Shown here piece after piece: positions 22,381-58,168 of a DNA stretch of 64,000 nucleotides (its first letter is position 1; each line of letters opens with the position of its first letter). Origin of the DNA: Hexactinellida sp. DTS-2022 (taxonomy: Eukaryota; Porifera; Hexactinellida); NCBI GenBank assembly GCA_028753945.1, contig JAPNXP010000001.1:1726501-1790500 (forward strand). Reading direction: 5' to 3'. The position numbers and the translations under genes were made by a program. The notes under the pieces are model-generated. The model worked only from the letters and a program-made list of their open reading frames with translations. It did not search any database and had not been told where the DNA came from.

Positions 22381-25300
22381 TCACCCCCTCCTCTACAAAC
22401 TCTCGTCGTCAAAACTGTCATCAGAGAGGTCATCTAGCCATTCTGATTCGATCAGTTTCCTGGATGGCTTCCTTGTCCTGTTTGATGTGCGAGGTCCTAC
22501 GTCTGATACGATTTCTTCGAACTCTGGGTTCTGTACCGGGACGGTTGTGTACTCTTCCTCGCTAAGATCGTCTTCTGAACCGTATCCTTCCGGTAGGTCA
22601 ATGTCTGCAGGTTTGGTCCTGTAGCAATTAGGGAAGTAGAGTTTTGGAAGGTAATGTTTGCATCTATTTAGATGTATCCACTTTTCTAGGGACCTTTCCT
22701 TCCCTATTCTTTGTTTGATCAAAACATTAGGTCCTTTTCTATGTATTACTACATACGGCCCGTCAAACTTTTGGTCGAGACTACTCTTTCTATTCTGGTT
22801 CTTCAGTAGTACTAAATCTCCAATACCTATCTTGGAATCGACTTTTCCCTTATCGAAGTAATTTTTCATAGTGGCCCTAGATTGGGCAAGATTTTCTCCC
22901 ACTTCGTCGTTGATCATATCTTCCATGAGTTCCAATTCCGTTACCCAATCGAGTATAGAATCATATCCCTCTCGAGTACTAGTTTCCAAAAAGGCGGTCG
23001 ACAAAGGTTTGGGATCGATTCCATACATAACCCTGTAGGGTGTAAAACCTGTACTCATATTAGGTATAGAGTTCATTATGTAACTCACTTCGGGGAGGAT
23101 GGTCGGCCAACTATCTTTCGCCACCTGTCTCTCCTCAAGCATACACCGCATGATCTGTTTTATTGCCTGAATACCACGTTCGCTTTGGCCGTCCCCTTCT
23201 GGATGGTAAGGCGAACTTCTTTTCTTCTTAATTCCGTGCATTGCTAGGGCGGTCCTTATTTCGCTCCCGTCCACGTTAGGCCCCTGATCACTAAGTATGT
23301 AGTTTGGAGGACCATGTCTATAAACCCAACCATCGAGTATTCCTCTCACGATAGTGGACGACTCTTGGTCTACCATGGGATACAATTCTACGAATTTGGA
23401 AAACAGGTCCACCATGAGTAAAAAATAACGGTGGTTGGATGATGCCCACGGTAAAGTGGCCACGTCGAAGGCAATCATCTCTCGAGGCCTCTTGGAAACA
23501 TTAATTGGGATAAGTTTTTCTTTCGGGTTGCTGTTGGGTTTATTTTTGTGACATATGAGACACCCCCTGCAATATTCATCAATATCAGAATCCATTCGCT
23601 TCCAGAAGAATCGGGTTCTGACAAGGCGTGTCGTCTTGTCGACACCTGGGTGACCCATACTGTGCACTATCGAGATTGCTTCTTGTCTCATAACCCTTGG
23701 TATAACGACTTTACTTCCTCTGCACAGTAATCCTTCCCTCAAGGTCATTCCAACTTGGTTCTTGAATTGGCCCTGAGTGACTTGGTTCGTTTCCCGGAGT
23801 TGACTAATCGCCGAAGATACAAGAGCATCTTCCTCTTGGCATCTCTTCATTTTGTTGTGCCAATTAGGATCATAGCTAATCTGGTAAATGTGTCTTTCGA
23901 AATGTTCTTCCTCGTCGTTCACTTCCCAATCGATATCGGTACTAATCCTGGAAAGGAAATCAGCCGGCCCATTCTCGACACCCTTTACGTATTTGATCTC
24001 GTAAGCGAGGATCTCCAGTTCCTGTATCCATCTCGCGAACTTCCCCCGCGGGTCCTTTTGTCGTCGTAGCCACACGAGAGGGTTATGGTCAGAAAGGAAC
24101 TGAATGCTAGGAGCTGCTTGTAAATACTTTCTGAATTTTCTACTGGCTGCAATTACCGCCCAGCACTCCAGTTCTCCTGCTGAGTACTTCTTTTGAGCTG
24201 GGGTTAGCCCTGATGAAAAGTATGCGATTGGTTTCAATCGCCCGTCTGTCCCCTCTTGGGATAATACGCCTCCAACGGCTATTGCAGAAGCGTCTACTTG
24301 TAATGTAAACTCAGAGTTCCAATCTGGGAACGCTAGCATTACCGGTGGCTTAATTAGCTTGTTTTTGAGGCTGTTGAAAGCGGTCTCAGCGGTTTCGTTC
24401 CAGATCCATTCTGCTGAATCACGTGTCAATATATATAATGGTTCTGCGATATCGGCGAATCCCTGGACATGCTCTCGGTAATAATTAACTAATCCCAGGA
24501 ACCTTAATAACTCTTTCTTTGACCTTGGTCTCTCGGCTGTCTTGATCTTCTCTACGAGCCTTGGGGTGGGGTGGTGACCATCTGCTGTGATCATATGGCC
24601 GACGAATTCCCCTTCGGGATACCCGAAAGAGCATTTATCCCGCCTGAGTTGGACGTTCGCCTTACTCAATGCCTCCAAAGTGGATTTAAGGTCTGCAATG
24701 TGAGTGTCAAATTCTGATGAATGCACGCAAATATCGTCAACGTATGGGTCTGCGTGGATTACGGGTCTCAAAGTCTCGTCCATTAATCGCTGGTAGGTTG
24801 AACCACTATTTACTAACCCGAAAGGCATCCTATTAAATTCGTAAAGGCCCTTTGGGGTCGTAAACGCTGTCTTGAATTTATCTTCCTCCGATATTTCTAT
24901 TGCCCAATATGCCGAAGCTCCGTCCAAAAATGAAAAGTATGTATCACCAAACATCCGATCTAGAATATCTTTCGGATGGGGCATGGGATAAGAGTCGGTG
25001 CGCGTAACCTTGTTTAGTTCGCGAAAGTCAACGCAAAACCTTCTGTTACCATCACGCTTGGACACCAATAAGACTCTGCTCGCCCAAGGTGAGTTTGAAG
25101 GTCGACAAATCCCGTTAGATATCATATCCGTAACCTGACTCATAATTTCTTTTTCGACCGCCGGCGCCACTGGGTAAATTCTCTGCTTAATAGGTTGTGC
25201 ATCCCCTGTGTCAATCTTGTGTTTTACTCCCTTGGCGATACTCGGGCATTTTGGGTTGTCAGCGAAGACGCCGGATAACTCTCTAAGCATAGTTGTCAAT

Positions 25301-26664
25301 TTGTACTTTTGTTGGTTAGATAGGCCTGGGTTAATGTTAAAGCCTGGTCCGGTACAATTATTTTCTCCTGCAACTGTACTGCTCGAGCTATTACAATCTT
25401 GGTAAGTTGGGAGAAACGATTCTGCCAAATAACCATCAAGTACGCCTATGCGTACTTGATGGTTTAGCCAGTCGAATTCCAAAGCCCCGAACTTAGAGAG
25501 TAAGTCTCTCCCTAAAATGCAAGTGTTTTGGACTCCGTTCAATACTTCGAAAGAGTGTTGCACGGTTTGATCGTTTCCGAGGTCTAATAGAACCTCTAAT
25601 CTCCCGACAACGTTTATCGGTTCTTGAGCTAAACCGAATATCTTGCTTGTAATGTTGCGCATGCGTGTTTTAAGTCCCAGATTTCGAACGGTTTGCAAAT
25701 CTACGACTGAAGGACCGGCGCCGCTATCGAGTAACGCTGATACAGGTTCGCCATCTAACTTCACGGGTAAGACCACAGCCAGGCAGTCGAGTGACTGAGG
25801 TTGACCAACACAAAATACTTTTCGATTGTCTTCTGAAGGTTTCTTCGTGGAACAGTCCTTCAAAATGTGACCTTTCTGCCCACAGGAGGGGCACCTCTTT
25901 TCAGGACAGAATCTCCACGCGTGTCTATCCCCGCAAATATAGCATCCGCTGCCGCTTGCACGCCTCGATCTGCCTGTCTGCTTGGACCTCCAATTATTGG
26001 GCTGTCCCTTCAAGTAAGCGACTTGGTTTGCCGGTTCTAGACTATCGTCATTCCCTGCATCGTTTTGCTCTATAACTGCTACTTTCGTGATTGATTCAAA
26101 GTTGCGGTTTCCTTTATTTAGAGCATAGCCTTTCTCTGTTAGTTCAGCTTTAACTGACCGGATGAGTTTATGAGCGTCTGCGTGTTCTAGACTGTCGTTT
26201 ATTCCGACTACCTCCGCTTTAATTCTCGTTTGGACATCTCTTGGTACTTGCGCGGCCAATAAGGAAGCGACGTGTTTCAACCCTAATTTGGCGTAGGTAG
26301 CCTTTCGTTTCAGGAGGAAGAAATATTCCCCTATGTCTTGGCCAGGTTGCCAATGTAATCGACTGACTTCCTGCATGGCTATGAACGTGTCCATCGGGGG
26401 GTCTAGTACCCCTGCTAGGTTGCTGAGTGCCTCTTCCAGACTGTTCGCAGACTTCACGATATCTCTCACTGCTTCGCGGTCAGCAATGTCTCTATTAACA
26501 TAAGCTGGTAATAATTGAATTGCTCTTTTCTCCCCATCCTCTGCCGCAATCATATGTTGAGTGCTTGCCTCGAAAAGGTGCCGCCAATCCTCGATTCGGT
26601 CGCCTTTCTGTAGAGGGGGTACTGTGATCGGAGCGGTAGCCATTCACGATTAGTTCCGATTTAA

Positions 26665-26876: not shown

Positions 26877-27627
26877 TTAGTATACCTTATTATGGACATA
26901 CCTAATTTCCGGAACGGGACGGTATGGAACGGTACCATTCCGGAAAATAATAGTACCTAAATTACGGAACGGTACCATTCCGGGAAATTTATGTACCTAA
27001 ATTACGGAACGGGATAGACCCCCAAGTTATTGGTTAATTTGTTTATTATAGACTATAACAACATTTGGTTTTGTATTCTGATATACTATTTTGTACTAAA
27101 TGTGCTAAATTATCAAGATAAAATGAAACAAACCGGTGTAAGGGCGTTTAGGGACCCAGGGCCCGAATAGCTAACCTATTGTGTTCTAGGGGTGCCCTAA
27201 ATCGCTAGCGATTTAGGGGCCCCGAGTTTTGCATAGATTGAATATATTGTTATAGGTTTAATTAATCAATCTTTAGTTGATCTATCCCAGCTCAAGTACC
27301 TAAATTAACAATTTAAATACTGGAACCCTAACTACAAATAAATTACAGGAGTTGTATTAGTTGGACTTTCAATTAGGTAGTAACTCAGATTTCATCAGTA
27401 TGTAATGTGTACGTGCGTGAGAATATTTGGTGATGGTGGTGCTCTACACCACCTTGTCTACAGTCTACACGTCCGACACGTGTCATTTATACATACTTAG
27501 TGTTTAGGGACTTACATACGTTTTTAATTAATGATAACTCTCGTGTAAAATGCACATTGTATCACTGCCGTCCTTCCTGAGTGCGACACTTAGTTAGTAT
27601 GACTAATAGTATTGTAATATTTTAAGG

Positions 27628-27768
27628 AGTCCTCTGCGCGGGTCGTATACGGGTGCCGCCCCCGCCCCGCAAAATATTCAGATCCTTTGTTCCGCATGAA
27701 TCCGCGGGTTGCGGGTCCCGCGACCCGCATTAATTAATTAATTAATTAATTAACCCGCGCAGAGGTCT
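27628..27768. mobile_element. Small TIR element with CCTCTGCGCGGGT ends
   Basis: AGTCCTCTGCGCGGGTC and, inverted, AACCCGCGCAGAGGTCT, with a (TTAA)n run before the right end. It is GC-rich against its flanks and probably hAT-like; no exact target duplication was found. Confidence 0.5.
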
Positions 27769-28085
27769 AGTCTCTATCACTGGACTGGTCCCTACATTTA
27801 GCGATTTCGGACTAAGCTAAGCGGGCCCTAAAACGCTAATGATTTAGGGCCGGTGTAAGCGCGTTTTGGGTATCCAGCGATTTAGGGATCCCCGTCCCTA
27901 AAACGCTAGCGTTTTGTGATCGTGGGGTCCCTATATAGCTAGCGTTTTGTGATCGTGGGGTCCCTATATAGCTAGCGTTTTGTGGTCGTGAGGTCCCCAA
28001 ATCGCTAGTGATACAGGTACGCCAGTGTTTTGGGTATCCTCGTTTCTGTGCCCTAAAATTACTAGAGATTTAGGGAACTAAGTTT

Positions 28086-29911
28086 ATGGATGTGAAGTTA
28101 GCAGCAAGTCCAGCAGCAAAAAGTGAGCACGATGCATCTGGTTATAACTCCACTCTACCATAGGCTGTGGGGCTAAAATTAATACCACAGCTCTATCCCC
28201 GATGTAGGTTTATGAAATTTCAATTTTTAGTCTCTAACACCCAAAACCACTTGACAGTGACAGTGCAAAAATTACCCTTTTTCACTAGATAACCCACATC
28301 CAATTTGAGTGAGCACGATACACCTGGTTATAACTCCACTATACCATTGCTTGGCGGGCTGAAATTTATACCACAGCTTTATCCCCGATGTAGGTTTACG
28401 CTATTTCAATTTTTAGTCTCTAACATCCAAAACCACTTGACAGTGACAGTGCAAAAATTACCCTTTTTCACTGGATAATTATCCCACATCCAAATTGAGT
28501 GAGCACGATGCATCTGGTTATAGCTACACTATACCATTGCTTGGCGGGCTGAAATTTATACCACAGCTCTATCCCCGATGTAGGTTTACGCTATTTCAAT
28601 TTTTAGTCTCTAACATCCAAAACCACTTGACAGTGACAATGCAAAAATTACCCTTTTTCACTAGATAATTATCCCACATCCAAATTGAGTGAGCACGATG
28701 CATCTGGTTATAGCTACACTATACCATTGCTTGGCGGGCTGAAATTTATACCACAGCTTTATCCCCGATGTAGGTTTACGCTATTTCAATTTTTAGCCTC
28801 TAACATCCAAAACCACTTGACAGTGACAGTGCAAAAATTACCCTTTTTCACTGGATAATTATCCCACATCCAATTTGAGTGAGCACGATGCATCTGGTTA
28901 TAACTACACTATACCATTGCTTGGCGGGCTGAAATTTATACCACAGCTCTATCCCCGATGTAGGTTTACGCTATTTCAATTTTTAGTCTCTAACATCCAA
29001 AACCACTTGACAGTGACAGTGCAAAAATGACCCATTTTCACTAGATAATTATCCCACATCCAAATTGAGTGAGCACGATGCATCTGGTTATAACTCCACT
29101 ATACCATTGCTTGGCGGGCTGAAATTTATACCACAGCTTTATCCCCGATGTAGGTTTACGCTATTTCAATTTTTAGTCTCTAACATCCAAAACCACTTGA
29201 CAGTGACAGTGCAAAAATTACCCTTTTTCACTGGATAATTATCCCACATCCAAATTGAGTGAGCACGATGCATCTGGTTATAGCTACACTATACCATTGC
29301 TTGGCGGGCTGAAATTTATACCACAGCTCTATCCCCGATGTAGGTTTACGCTATTTCAATTTTTAGTCTCTAACATCCAAAACCACTTGACAGTGACAGT
29401 GCAAAAATGACCCATTTTCACTAGATAATTATCCCACATCCAAATTGAGTGAGCACGATGCATCTGGTTATAACTCCACTCTACTATAGGCTGGCGGGCT
29501 GAAATTGATGCCACAGCTCTATTCCCGATGTAGGTTTATACTATTTCAAAAAACATGTATCAATTTTCATCCCATAATGACTAATCATATTTACGAGTGT
29601 GAAGTTGGCGCAGTATTCAACTGAGCACAGATCAAATCCAAATTTGAGGCCCTTCCCACAGTTGGATTTGGCCAAAAATTACACCCCTTAAAGGGGAGAT
29701 ACGGACATTTTTGATTCTGGATAAAAATCTTATAATTTTTATTTTTTGTATTTATTTTAAAAATTATGTCTGAGCACTAAAAAAAATTATTTTTGACAAC
29801 AATTTTTCGAAAATGAAGTTAAAACTTTGCAAACTTTGCATACATGTTTGTGAGTAAGGGACGTTTCTTATTTCAAAATATTTCAAAAAAATATCAATAT
29901 TCCTATGAGAT
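28086..29911 (+). repeat. Left arm of the FB-like element (about 8 units of 190 bp)
   Basis: Tandem units to about 29560, then a single-copy segment to 29911 (ending AATATTCCTATGAGATA). Units are very alike, with a few site variants (ACTCCACT or GCTACACT; CACTAGAT or CACTGGAT) that alternate between units. Confidence 0.88.
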
Positions 29912-30278
29912 AGAGCTTGGCAAAGTTTAACATCTATTTACTTCAGATTATATATTTCTATATTGATCGAGTGAACAAGCACATGTGCTAAAGTATTCAT
30001 CTATTTGGTAATAATTCGATAATGATTTATTATAGTTTAGCGTTTCCAATTTGTCTTTGCCATAGTCAATTATATACAGCCTAGTTCTCGTATTTTCTGC
30101 TCAACATTTATACTGCATTCAAAACTCTAAATTATTATTATTTTTAAAAATACTATTTCATACAAAGACAACTGATGTATTAATAATACACAATACCTCA
30201 CAGACAATACCTAATACAGAATAACTTTTGTATGTAAGATGAGGGAGAGCAATGGCATATAATAAGTTAAGATATATT

Positions 30279-32069
30279 CTAGGATTTGTGGGTAATAACA
30301 TAATTTTTGTTAGATGTCAATTGTTTTAGTTTTAAAACTTTAGCACAGATTTCACTGTAGATCCCCTCAAAATGTCTCCCAAAAGGGGAAGTTTTTATAT
30401 AGGTATCCTTTTCAAAATTTTCAGGGTTATCGTCTTTAACTATACTTTCTAAATCTAACAAACTCTTAGTAACTGGGGGTAACATTGATTCAGTTGTCAT
30501 TAAAACACACAGGGATGCAAAAACAATATTTATTTCGTCGATGTTTGAATTTGTTTTGTACCATAGTACCGCATGCATGTAGCACTAACTGTTTGAGTCG
30601 TTTATCAATTTTATAATTCTTAGCTAATTTGTAACTAATACTTGGATTATGTGTGTCGAAGGAGATGCAATACAGTTGGTAAATTTAAAATTTGCATTGG
30701 TTTTACAGTTTACAATTTCCCAGCATTTAGATAAATATATATGGATATACTTTGTTTATTGAATGCTAAACATGTACTATGCATTAATGGTTAACTATAG
30801 TCCATTTCAACTTGGTCAATATTTATATCTTATGGAGAATTAGCTTACTAGTTAAAATCCATTTATTTAAAAAAGGAGTTATTTCGGAGAATCCCTGGGC
30901 ACTACTTATCATTTCTGCAACAGGTACAGGGCTCGTGCAAAATTCAGGGTGCTGTAAAGTAAGAGCATAATAGTATATCGATTTTGCACATATTGATGGC
31001 ACTTTAATAATAGAACTCGTGGCGTCGATATTCAGTACAATATTTTTATTTTTTAAGAATTTAAAAACTTCTATCTGTTTTAAGGTATATACATTAATAA
31101 TAAATGGATCTTGTACCATATATTTAATGTAACCGGTATTTGATCGTCAGGTAACTCTAAACGGAAAAGTATTTCAGTTTCCAAAATATCTATTATATCG
31201 TCATTGGAGACCTATCTATAGAGTTCATGTCTGATTTAATTCTTCACAAAGTTTGTCGGGATTTTAGATTAGAGAAATTACCCCTTTTGAATGCCTCGAT
31301 ATTCTTTTCCAATATAATTGTCTATTAAAAATATTACTTGCTGAAATATTAATTAATTGTTACCCCATTTTTTTCCTTTCACATGCATTAATGTGACGTG
31401 CATGAGTAGTTTTATTATTTGCATGTTCTAACGAAATATCACCATTGGAATGATAGCCGATAGCTAAGCATTATAATCTATTGAATTAAAATCATTCTCA
31501 ATTGAAAAAGTTACAGAAAAACAATTAGAGAATTTACATACTGCCCAAGTTTGGAAAAACGAGGATTTAAATTTCCTACTATCACATTTTTTTGAACCAA
31601 TAATGTTTAAACTTTAAAACACAAATTGAATTTATTTCTGAAAAACTTTTAGCAATTAGACTAGTCCATTCTATATTCAATCGATATTTACCATCATCAT
31701 CTATGTAACTATGCTATTTAACTCTTCTCTATCTATATAAAACTCGCCGAAACAATTTCTACTATAAAATAATTTTGTATCTTTTTCAAATGCATTAATA
31801 ATTGGAAAATCAACATTTTCAGGTTTACTAAAAATAAAGCCAAGCATGTTTTCTAAATTATTCGAATTTTTTAATGGATCATTAAGTGCAAAAACAATTG
31901 TAATCAATATATATATTTTTGAAATACAAACGTCTCCTCCATTGAATGACACTATTTTTGTCCCGTTCCAACAATGAGAAGTGTCTAAAATTATAACTTG
32001 AAGCATGCTCAGTTGAAAATGTATTATAAGGGTACTGAGTCTACTGACGTGATCAATGAATAAGTGCAA
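30279..32069 (-). pseudogene. Relic of a MULE/NOF-like transposase in the FB core
   Basis: Three minus-strand open stretches lie in the unique core: 31701-32069, 30823-31119 and 30279-30578. The middle one reads NIVLNIDATSSIIKVP, then IYYYALTL and SPVPVAEMISSAQ, with FLNKW. This is a pattern I associate with the RNase-H-like catalytic core of NOF/MULE-type transposases, where the Asp of IDAT is the first catalytic acid. Between 31120 and 31440 the minus strand has coding-like but interrupted sequence. Frame changes and stops separate the pieces. Assignment rests on the motif and the FB architecture, not on a database match. Confidence 0.55.
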
Positions 32070-32083
32070 AATTATTTCAATTG

Positions 32084-33341
32084 TATCTCATAGGAATATT
32101 GATATTTTTTTGAAATATTTTGAAATAAGAAACGTCCCTTACTCACAAACATGTATGCAAAGTTTGCAAAGTTTTAACTTCATTTTCGAAAAATTGTTGT
32201 CAAAAATAATTTTTTTTAGTGCTCAGACATAATTTTTTTAAATAAATACAAAAAATAAAAATTATAAGATTTTTATCCAGAATCAAAAATGTCCGTATCT
32301 CCCCTTTAAGGGGTGTAATTTTTGGCCAAATCCAACTGTGGGAAGGGCCTCAAATTTGGATTTGATCTGTGCTCAGTTGAATACTGCGCCAACTTCACAC
32401 TCGTAAATATGATTAGTCATTATGGGATGAAAATTGATACATGTTTTTTGAAATAGTATAAACCTACATCGGGAATAGAGCTGTGGCATCAATTTCAGCC
32501 CGCCAGCCTATAGTAGAGTGGAGTTATAACCAGATGCATCGTGCTCACTCAATTTGGATGTGGGATAATTATCTAGTGAAAATGGGTCATTTTTGCACTG
32601 TCACTGTCAAGTGGTTTTGGATGTTAGAGACTAAAAATTGAAATAGCGTAAACCTACATCGGGGATAGAGCTGTGGTATAAATTTCAGCCCGCCAAGCAA
32701 TGGTATAGTGTAGTTATAACCAGATGCATCGTGCTCACTCAAATTGGATGTGGGATAATTATCCAGTGAAAAAGGGTAATTTTTGCATTGTCACTGTCAA
32801 GTGGTTTTGGATGTTAGAGGCTAAAAATTGAAATAGCGTAAACCTACATCGGGGATAGAGCTGTGGTATAAATTTCAGCCCGCCAAGCAATGGTATAGTG
32901 TAGCTATAACCAGATGCATCGTGCTCACTCAATTTGGATGTGGGATAATTATCCAGTGAAAAAGGGTAATTTTTGCACTGTCACTGTCAAGTGGTTTTGG
33001 ATGTTAGAGACTAAAAATTGAAATAGCGTAAACCTACATCGGGGATAAAGCTGTGGTATAAATTTCAGCCCGCCAAGCAATGGTATAGTGGAGTTATAAC
33101 CAGGTGTATCGTGCTCACTCAAATTGGATGTGGGTTATCTAGTGAAAAAGGGTAATTTTTGCACTGTCACTGTCAAGTGGTTTTGGGTGTTAGAGACTAA
33201 AAATTGAAATTTCATAAACCTACATCGGGGATAGAGCTGTGGTATTAATTTTAGCCCCACAGCCTATGGTAGAGTGGAGTTATAACCAGATGCATCGTGC
33301 TCACTTTTTGCTGCTGGACTTGCTGCTAACTTCACATCCAT
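32084..33341 (-). repeat. Right arm of the FB-like element (about 5 units, inverted)
   Basis: Starts with the inverse TATCTCATAGGAATATT, then a single-copy segment to about 32440, then five inverted units of the 190-bp repeat. The terminal unit variants mirror those of the left arm. Confidence 0.88.
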
Positions 33342-33711
33342 ACTAAGTTTACATAAAGTGAGTATATCCTAAACTAAAGGTCTAAAGTACCTAATTATGT
33401 GACTACTTGATGATATATAGATAGGTAATTATAATTCCTACGGTAGGCCGAACTAAAACACTACATTTCTTTGCAAATTTCACACGCCCCTTATAGTTTG
33501 GGTCTGTCCACGCCAGTATCGGGATCCGGCGATCCGCAATTCCGCATACATTCTTCGTGAACAATCTGCATATTGTATCATTTCCTCCTTCCTGAGTACG
33601 GCATTTACAAAATATATCGATCCTCTTTCTATTTTTCACTTAGAAAGATTTTCACTTTCTATTTTTCTAATTTTACTCAAATACTAAAGATAGTGAAGGA
33701 TTTGGGCAATA

Positions 33712-33870: not shown

Positions 33871-34602
33871 TTTATACGTAGAAGACTATGCCTTGTGCCT
33901 ATAGGTTCTATATGGGTAGCCTTGGGTGGGGTCCCTATATCTCTGAATTGATCCCTATATCGCTAGCGTTTTTGGGATCCAAGGGGTCCCTAAATCGCTA
34001 GCGATATAGGGACGGGTATCCCTAAATCGCTGGATACCTAAAACGCGGTTACACCGGGGGTAAAAGAATAAAAAATAGGAATTTTAGACGGGAAAGGAAG
34101 ATTGGAATTTGGAATCACTATTTTGGTTTACTCGGGGTCTCGGTAGGGCATCCACGGGGTTGCACATATCTTTCGATCGTGGGCTAAGTGAAAGGAGGTA
34201 TCTTTGTTCTGGAAATTAGGGATCAAAATTAACGGAATCGTATATTCCGGAAATTAGGTATTTAAATTCCCGGAATAAATTTGTTCCGGAAATTAGGCAT
34301 TTATAATTTCCGGAATCGAATATTCCGGAAAATAGGCATTTGAATTTCCGGAATAATTTCGTTCCGGAAATTAGGTATTCATATTTTCCGGAACCGTTCC
34401 GCGGAATTCCGTAATTTAGGTACTTTGATTTTCCGGAATGGTACCGTTCCGTACCGTCCCGTTCCGGAAATTAGGTATGTCCCTTATTATAGGAAATTAA
34501 CGCGAAGGAAATTTACGCTCCATGAAATTAACGCGAAGGAAATTTACGCTCCATGAAATTAACGCGATTTGGAGAAATTCGCGTTAATTTCCTATAATAA
34601 GG

Positions 34603-56535: not shown

Positions 56536-56739
56536 AAAGATGTTGTTGTAGAACATAACAACGAATGAGGTGTGAACGATAAATTGTTTATTTTCCCACT
56601 CTGGAAATTTGGCGTTCTCACCTGATCGTTATATGGATTCTAGTTATATGGTTTATAGTACAACATAATATCAAAATGGAGTATATAAATAGTCAATAGT
56701 AATTACGTAATTACAAAAAATCATATTTACAAGATTCTA

Positions 56740-58168
56740 ATGGCTATTTCCTTAACTTCTTTTTCGATTGAGAGGATTACGAGTGAAAAGAACAAAGATA
56801 AAGCAACTATACAAGGTTTTATTTATACTTTAAATAGGAAATCTCACGATATTGAATACTGGGTCTGTGAAAAACGCGGGATCTGTAAAGCGAGGTTACA
56901 CACAAATAATAATCAAGTAGTCAAACCTACAGATCCTTCCACAATACCAAGTGAACACTCCCATAGTTCCGATGTAATTAGGGTCAATATGCTAAAAGGG
57001 TATACAAACCTCAAAGGCATTGCTCGAAATTCTGATTCAAGTACACGCACTCTCCTTGCTAATTCAGTGGAAGAAATGACTGCAGAATGTATTAACAAGT
57101 TGCCTAAACTTTATTCTGTTAAGAGAACTATTAGAAAGTGTAAGAGAGGAGAAGAAGAATACTATGGGAATCCAAGTTCTTGTGCTGAAATAATAATTCC
57201 TGACAGATATAAATTCACACTCAATGGTAACAGCTTCCTACTGTTTGATTCTGGAGAAGGTGATATGTATAGAATGATGCTCTTTGGAACTACAAAGTTT
57301 CTATCGATACTTAAAGAAAGTAATAACTGGTACTGTGAGTCTGTGATAGTACATTTAAAGTGGTTCCAAAACATTTTTTCAACTCTACACTATCCATGCA
57401 CAAAGAGATGCATATATATTCCCTTGTGTGTATGCCTTGTTACAGGCTAAGACTGAAGTCACTTACGAAAGGATGCTCTCTAAACTACTCCAGCTAGAAC
57501 CAGAATTAAATCCCACATCTATAATGGTGGATTTTGAAAAGGCCGCGATTAATGCATTGGAAAATAAGTTCATTGCCTGTGTTTATGGATGTTTCTTCCA
57601 CTTATCTCAGAACATTTACCGGAGAATTCAAGCTGATGGATTAGCTACCGCGTATCAACAAGATGCTGATTTAGCTTTGAAGCTGAAGATGCTGCCCTGC
57701 CTGGCTTTCGTACCCGAGATCGATGTAATTGATTGTTTTAGTATTTTGATGGAAGAATATCCCCAATCTGGGATGACGGTAGCGAAATATTTTGAAGACA
57801 ACTATATTGGAAAACAACTCCCAAATGGTTCTCGCAGGACGCCACTATTTCCCATAAGAATGTAGAACATGCATCAAAGAGTGATGGATCAAATGCCTAG
57901 AACAAATAATAGTGTAGAAGGCTGGCATAATGCATTTAGACATGGCATTGGTCATCCACACCCAAGTTTTGTCTAACTCTTAAGTTTTTTGCAAAAAGAG
58001 CAATCGCTTCAGGATGCAATTTATGCAAAGTGGGAAGGAGGAACTATAAAGAAACGTTCGAAATTGAGTGTTGAACGTGAAAAAAGAATTTATAATATCG
58101 TTAGCAAATATGATAATCGCGAAACCTTGGAATATCTTCGAGGGTTAGCATATAATATGGAATTTTGA
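56740..58168 (+). pseudogene. FLYWCH/MULE transposase gene, broken
   Basis: The N-terminal FLYWCH-like zinc module has GFIYTLNRKSHDIEYWVCEK, a second Cys in GICKARLHT and His in EHSHS. The MULE catalytic part follows with ALLQAKTEVTYERMLSKL, IMVDFEKAAINAL (catalytic Asp) and CFFHLSQNIYRRIQ, then PRTNNSVEGWHNAF. It is a DNA transposon's own gene, not a host gene. It is broken: the frame changes near 57375 (the continuation QLYTIHAQRDAYIFPCVYAL lies in another frame) and stops occur near 57863 and 57976. About 80% of a typical protein can be followed. The decay is light, so the copy is not ancient. An inverted terminal pair was not found. Confidence 0.8.

Follow-up and report, generated by a model that had tools for sequence, protein, structure and literature searches.

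A composite foldback transposon in which the tandem-repeat arms of one family enclose a dead member of a related family

INTRODUCTION

How does a foldback transposon come to have doubled inverted ends, and where does the transposase that moves it come from? These questions are raised by an element at positions 28086-33341 of the window, the 64,000-nucleotide stretch of DNA analysed here (C1:1726501-1790500). In Drosophila, FB-NOF combines tandem-repeat foldback arms and a 9-bp target with a coding element between the arms; its tandem-repeat foldback arms and 9-bp target are like those at this locus. A sequence-only reading had described the element as a MULE-type foldback of an animal with a unique 2.2-kb core, overlooking both its composite nature and the OTU domain of its relatives. 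In plants, the origin of doubled inverted ends was called unclear by the authors who described tandem-TIR MULEs (PMC3310237), and the authors of the Tetris study searched without success for a transposase source of their foldback (PMC4079207). Here, a single genome holds the composite, relatives of both single families with their own target duplications, and encoding relatives, so that the origin of the doubled ends and the source of transposase become directly testable.

RESULTS

An intact-ended foldback inserted into a host repeat

The element is bounded by the exact 9-bp direct repeat ACTAAGTTT (28077-28085 and 33342-33350), starts with ATGGATGTGAAG, and ends with the reverse complement of ATGGATGTGAAG. 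Its outermost segments are the termini of a family that we call A: the left one (28086-28121, plus strand, ATGGATGTGAAGTTAGCAGC...) lies outside the array and has its first 20 bp in common with a distant family, A2, and the right one occupies 33306-33341 (minus strand). Tandem Repeats Finder placed 7.5 copies of a 190-bp unit at 28122-29549 (plus) and 4.5 copies in the opposite orientation at 32448-33305 (minus). The arms form inverted repeats that pair in two registers, one 904 nt and the other 895 nt long, with 98% complementarity. The direct repeat, inverted ends, and oppositely oriented arms noticed from the sequence were all confirmed, and the foldback architecture holds in that the long tandem-repeat arms vary in unit number between copies and a target-site duplication is present.

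Empty sites demonstrate that the element was inserted. A 135-nt query made of the joined flanks matched 42 places in the genome, and 20 of these matches span the junction over nearly the whole query (from position 11 or before to position 127 or beyond) at 87-98% identity with small gaps only; by this alignment extent, rather than letter by letter, at least 20 other copies of the host repeat were judged to have neither the foldback nor the duplication. Several further matches cross the junction partly, and two are the window's own halves, overlapping by the 9-bp duplication plus one base. The directly enclosing host repeat has mirror ends at 27850-27915 and 33992-34057 and occurs without the foldback in at least 20 copies elsewhere. 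It interrupts in turn an outer high-copy element that encloses the whole stack, with inverted ends of about 120 bp at 26894-27011 and 34360-34482, a left portion reaching across 26889-27853, and 106 matches. Just left of the nested stack, a Ty3/Gypsy-type retroelement has an uninterrupted frame of 1416 codons (22393-26643, minus strand). Among the genes of the window, one shows an ADAMTS-type domain architecture (reprolysin, ADAMTS cysteine-rich, TSP1); together with other genes it points to an animal host, in agreement with the sequence-only reading. A search for Wnt domains gave no match, which for this kind of search is no sign that they are absent.

Copies across the genome

The genome searched comprised 112,398,167 bases in 18 contigs, and we examined the window and 25 further loci, one per further match cluster (n = 26). 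Both ends were found in 12 composites (the window and L009-L019), in three elements consisting of family A only (L020, L022, and L027), and in two members of the A2 family (L029 and L030). One composite is one-ended (L021), seven loci showed a single end (L023-L026, L028, L031, and L033), and L032 showed none; some of the missing ends may fall outside the stretches examined.

An exact 9-bp duplication flanks 9 of the 12 composites (window, L010, L011, L012, L014, L015, L017, L018, and L019), so insertion at the A ends took place with a 9-bp duplication; L009 matches in 8 of 9 positions, L013 has 8 bp, and L016 has none. Among the elements of family A only, the 9-bp duplication is exact for L020 and for L022, and that of L027 agrees in 8 of 9 positions; in the A2 family that of L029 is exact (GAAAAAAGT) and L030 lacks one. 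Taken over all 19 relatives with both ends read (12 composites, three A-only, two A2, and two members of family B described below), 14 duplications are exact, two match in 8 of 9 positions, one is of 8 bp, and two are absent (L016 and L030), which is beyond chance. L016 (C1:10411890-10421715) is a composite with intact ends and differing 9-bp flanks, as expected from recombination between two copies.

Arm lengths range from 556 to 1506 bp on the left and from 738 to 1696 bp on the right. Most of them differ by multiples of about 190 bp (the 1188-bp right arm of L011 is an exception), and the two arms of one copy are frequently unequal. With L013 and L019 left out of the comparison for length differences, the core is 99.89-99.96% identical to that of the window in 9 of the 11 other composites, which suggests that movement of the composite was probably recent. 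That the whole assembly moves as one unit is evident from its presence, almost unchanged in sequence, at about ten places. Left and right outermost 240 bp agree at 97.1-100% within each of 14 copies, and a divergence of 4-7% separates those of L019, L020, and L022 from those of the window; arms alike within copies and unlike between copies are predicted by conversion from arm to arm.

The same survey bears on whether the 190-bp unit might be an ordinary satellite that was inverted by chance or in the assembly, which the sequence-only reading had named, along with copies lacking paired arms or a 9-bp target, as speaking against a foldback. Tandem arrays of 4.5-7.5 units would fit a satellite. 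Empty sites exist, however, and paired ends occur at 12 places with different flanks, varied arm lengths, and nine exact duplications, and no free long array was seen by eye among the 149 matches listed (40 of 56 candidates scored). The 12 two-ended composites recovered with their flanking 9 bp all have paired arms and give no sign of a satellite. This explanation, which we regard as negligible, is refuted by the empty sites, the paired-end copies, and the want of free long arrays among the matches listed.

The core is a member of another family

What had been read as a unique core of 2.2 kb is instead a transposon of 2,812 bp (29593-32404) from a second family, B, whose ends are ACGAGTGTGAAG; uniqueness was rejected since the core sequence recurs elsewhere in the genome as free family-B elements. 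The inner end of the left A arm (29550-29592, plus) adjoins B and resembles by eye the inner arm end of the A-only element L020. It is followed by the left inverted terminal region of B (29593-29912, plus, ACGAGTGTGAAGTTGGCGCAG...), delimited by inverted-repeat and free-B comparison. The corresponding right region of B (32084-32404, minus) was delimited by inverted-repeat comparison and the inner end of the right A arm (32405-32447, minus) by comparing composite copies. The inverted ends of B, about 300 bp long, prolong the arms inward.

Families A and B exist separately. A 191-nt query across the inner arm matched at full length in most composites, and 15 of its 40 rows matched only from query position 53-67, i.e., from about 29582-29596 of the window inward, and represent free family-B elements. 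Four free B copies were tried. In two of them both ends were seen, each pair with an exact 9-bp duplication: the copy at C14:3091421-3101439, with ends ACGAGTGTGAAG..., is flanked on both sides by ACTATTAGA, and that at C1:15587704-15595391 by CTATCCATT. The second ends of the copies on C3 and C11 do not lie within the stretch examined. Conversely, L020 and L022 have A arms, and no B end was found in them. The element is a composite: its arms and termini are those of family A, and they surround a transposon of the related family B that is dead and has internal deletions.

Plain nesting is an alternative history. B would have jumped into a short palindromic A derivative, its arms nearly adjacent, with later amplification of the composite; L027, which measures 200 bp end to end, is an A element almost devoid of a core, and B abuts in the composites about where the two A arms of L020 cease to match each other (by eye). 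The flanks of B do not agree with this history. B is bordered on its two sides by the 9-mers ATCATATTT and AAATATGAT, which are reverse complements of each other and match as a direct repeat in only 2 of 9 positions, so that the composites have no B duplication; it is missing from all 12 two-ended ones, including the more diverged L019, whereas both free B copies with two ends read do have one. The 40 nt on either side of B form inverted repeats, which are exact in 11 of the 12 composites and have a single mismatch in L019. We therefore regard plain nesting as possible, though on the unlikely side.

Transposase and OTU coding capacity

The core contains B-type transposase remnants on the minus strand (30241-31817), broken, internally deleted, and in several frames, which match the two transposase pieces of the free family-B element L038 up to residue 323 of the second piece. 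Beyond this residue no significant similarity to the L038 pieces was found, nor any to the part around the E motif or to the OTU domain, so the region of the third catalytic motif and the OTU domain appear to be missing from the B core.

Transposase pieces are also carried by the A-only elements L020 and L022. L020 has a frame of 688 codons and, in another frame, a domain of the OTU cysteine-protease type (PF02338, 4.8e-10). Its gene is broken, since frame changes and a stop separate the two regions; no intact A-type transposase was seen at the A-type loci examined. The A2 family has a 20-bp end identical to that of A and an OTU piece, and its arms are built of units 185-187 bp long. A related family, found through 48% identity to a B piece, is represented by L039, in which a single frame of 1,255 codons spans the transposase and OTU regions; its OTU match (5.4e-5) scores 24.1 bits, slightly above the Pfam cut-off of 23.3. 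When the genome was searched with this B piece of 98 aa, at least 24 among at least 150 places were seen by eye to lie in open frames of at least 1000 codons, and at least eight of these 24 have an OTU match about 1.6 kb downstream on the same strand. Against solved structures, L039 gave a single weak OTU match (E 0.17) and the family profile none, and the 1255-aa protein found no relatives in a viral collection. Upstream of the L039 frame lie inverted arrays of units of about 38 bp (TAGTGGAATC, L039:6155-7433); the ends of the L039 element were looked for and not found.

Placement relative to MULE transposases

The interpretation given in the sequence-only reading is supported in part, its MULE-type assignment being no more than plausible. 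The target duplication of about 9 bp, exact in 14 of 19 two-ended relatives, agrees with this assignment, but the Pfam MULE domain PF10551 is unmatched by the transposases of these families: it gave no match up to E 1 in eight pieces, some of which cover the OTU region only, and none up to E 10 in the 1255 aa of L039 or in both L038 transposase pieces, in searches whose HMMER filters drop most matches above about 0.1. Canonical MULE transposases are abundant in this genome, with at least 150 PF10551 places and FLYWCH/MULE pairs; the best 150 of these places, in which weak matches are invisible, do not overlap by eye with the listed places of the B piece. FLYWCH and MULE transposase fragments in two frames lie within the window itself (56689-57865).

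The catalytic core of the MULE superfamily has the order D, D, C-x2-H, E, and L039 offers the candidate motifs LHLDATG, IDFSW, CSAH, and NAIVENW. Aligned by hhalign/HHsearch with five MULE proteins of the same genome, a small profile of the family brought the second D and the CxxH into register, in a match that is weak (probability 0.7%, P 0.075). One of 60 block shuffles reached this score, none of 60 column shuffles did, and reversing the alignment lowered it. Such a resemblance to MULE transposases is suggestive at best. In L039, no match up to E 10 was found to a PHD finger, an rve integrase domain, or a THAP DNA-binding domain, the marks of Rehavkus, Ginger1, and the P superfamily with Galileo, respectively; in Ginger1 the integrase domain is accompanied by GPY/F. 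MULE membership seems plausible, and we term these families MULE-like.

DISCUSSION

Our results are best explained, with good confidence in the account as a whole, by a non-autonomous cut-and-paste composite foldback, with A arms and a dead B inside, which would move as one unit through its A ends and would have arisen by capture of B followed by conversion between the arms. The position of B inside A, with inverted flanks and without a duplication, points to mobilization through the A ends: most likely, an A-type transposase from another locus would bind and cut these ends in trans, and insertion would be staggered by 9 bp. Action of B-type proteins on the A ends is conceivable as well, given the ..TGTGAAGTT.GC common to A and B ends. 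The 190-bp arm units might serve as extra binding sites, by analogy with the arm units of Galileo, for which this role is cited in the Tetris paper (PMC4079207). As to its origin, B may have inserted at the edge of one A arm, whereupon gene conversion between the inverted arms would have transferred the A-arm/B-end junction to the opposite side as well, with loss of the gene of A and the target duplication of B; the copies examined include no intermediate of this step.

Several known systems share parts of this design. Tetris of Drosophila virilis, as described (PMC4079207), likewise has long inverted arms of about 220-bp tandem units in variable number, an outer flanking domain, and 8-10 bp duplications, and is non-autonomous. 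In contrast to the present element, whose core is another transposon and whose A-only, A2, and B relatives include transposase pieces and OTU, no autonomous partner is reported there. Tm1, a Mutator/Foldback of Meloidogyne, also has foldback arms with variable repeats, 9-bp duplications, and non-autonomous forms alongside a transposase-encoding one; by its description it differs in units of about 14 bp and in a transposase with FLYWCH and Pfam MULE domains (PMC3169594), neither of which was detected in the family studied here. Rehavkus (PMC6446971) resembles the element in its 9-bp duplication, a minisatellite near one end, and animal hosts, and differs by description in its PHD finger, none having been found here.

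Doubled ends also occur in the tandem-TIR MULEs of plants, which, as reported (PMC3310237), have outer and inner inverted ends, the inner ones without a duplication, and were amplified as a unit. Their authors left it open whether these ends arose by slippage, by recombination, or by nesting with later loss of the duplication (PMC3310237). Here, unlike in the plant elements as described there, outer and inner ends derive from two families, each existing alone with its own 9-bp duplication, and the window locus supports a nesting origin in one case.

The OTU domain ties this kind of transposition to the removal of ubiquitin. The account of Ginger1 (PMC2836005) describes OTU in Ginger1 and in Helitron elements and assigns Ulp1 to Mutators. 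Some Ginger1 families carry a C-terminal OTU domain on the transposase as here; the integrase-type catalytic domain of Ginger1 is unmatched in our elements. Among the papers listed in a survey of the open literature, no foldback or MULE whose transposase has an OTU domain was mentioned in titles and abstract openings, and the terms "OTU" and "foldback" are absent from the available text of PMC6446971 and PMC13359780. It is tempting to speculate that the families belong to an animal lineage outside the canonical MULEs, with satellite-like arms, 9-bp duplications, and an end motif of its own (..TGTGAAGTT.GC), and that their DDE transposase is joined to an OTU deubiquitinase in one protein. In such a lineage, long arms would allow cores to be swapped through arm-to-arm gene conversion, making the arms of one family vehicles for the body of another. 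We put this broader proposal forward as tentative and, in its full extent, rather improbable.

The termini of A and B both contain ..TGTGAAGTT.GC, equally far from the end, which might instead speak for one family only, in which the inner inverted region would be the original terminus and slippage or the duplication of terminal DNA would have added the 190-bp arrays on its outer side, along a tandem-TIR route. A directly repeated end, as in L038, would fit this growth. Yet the A arms and the B inverted region have no convincing similarity beyond the terminal stretch (best E 0.51), L020, L022, and L029 combine A arms with another core and lack B, and B occurs without A arms, so that we regard a single family as very unlikely. 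Simple slippage as the origin of the doubled ends is likewise disfavoured by the dissimilarity of A and B and by the A-only and B-only copies. The repeated end of the free family-B element L038 itself measures about 330 bp, its two copies being 87% alike (L038:7235-7912), and may perhaps represent a first step toward array arms.
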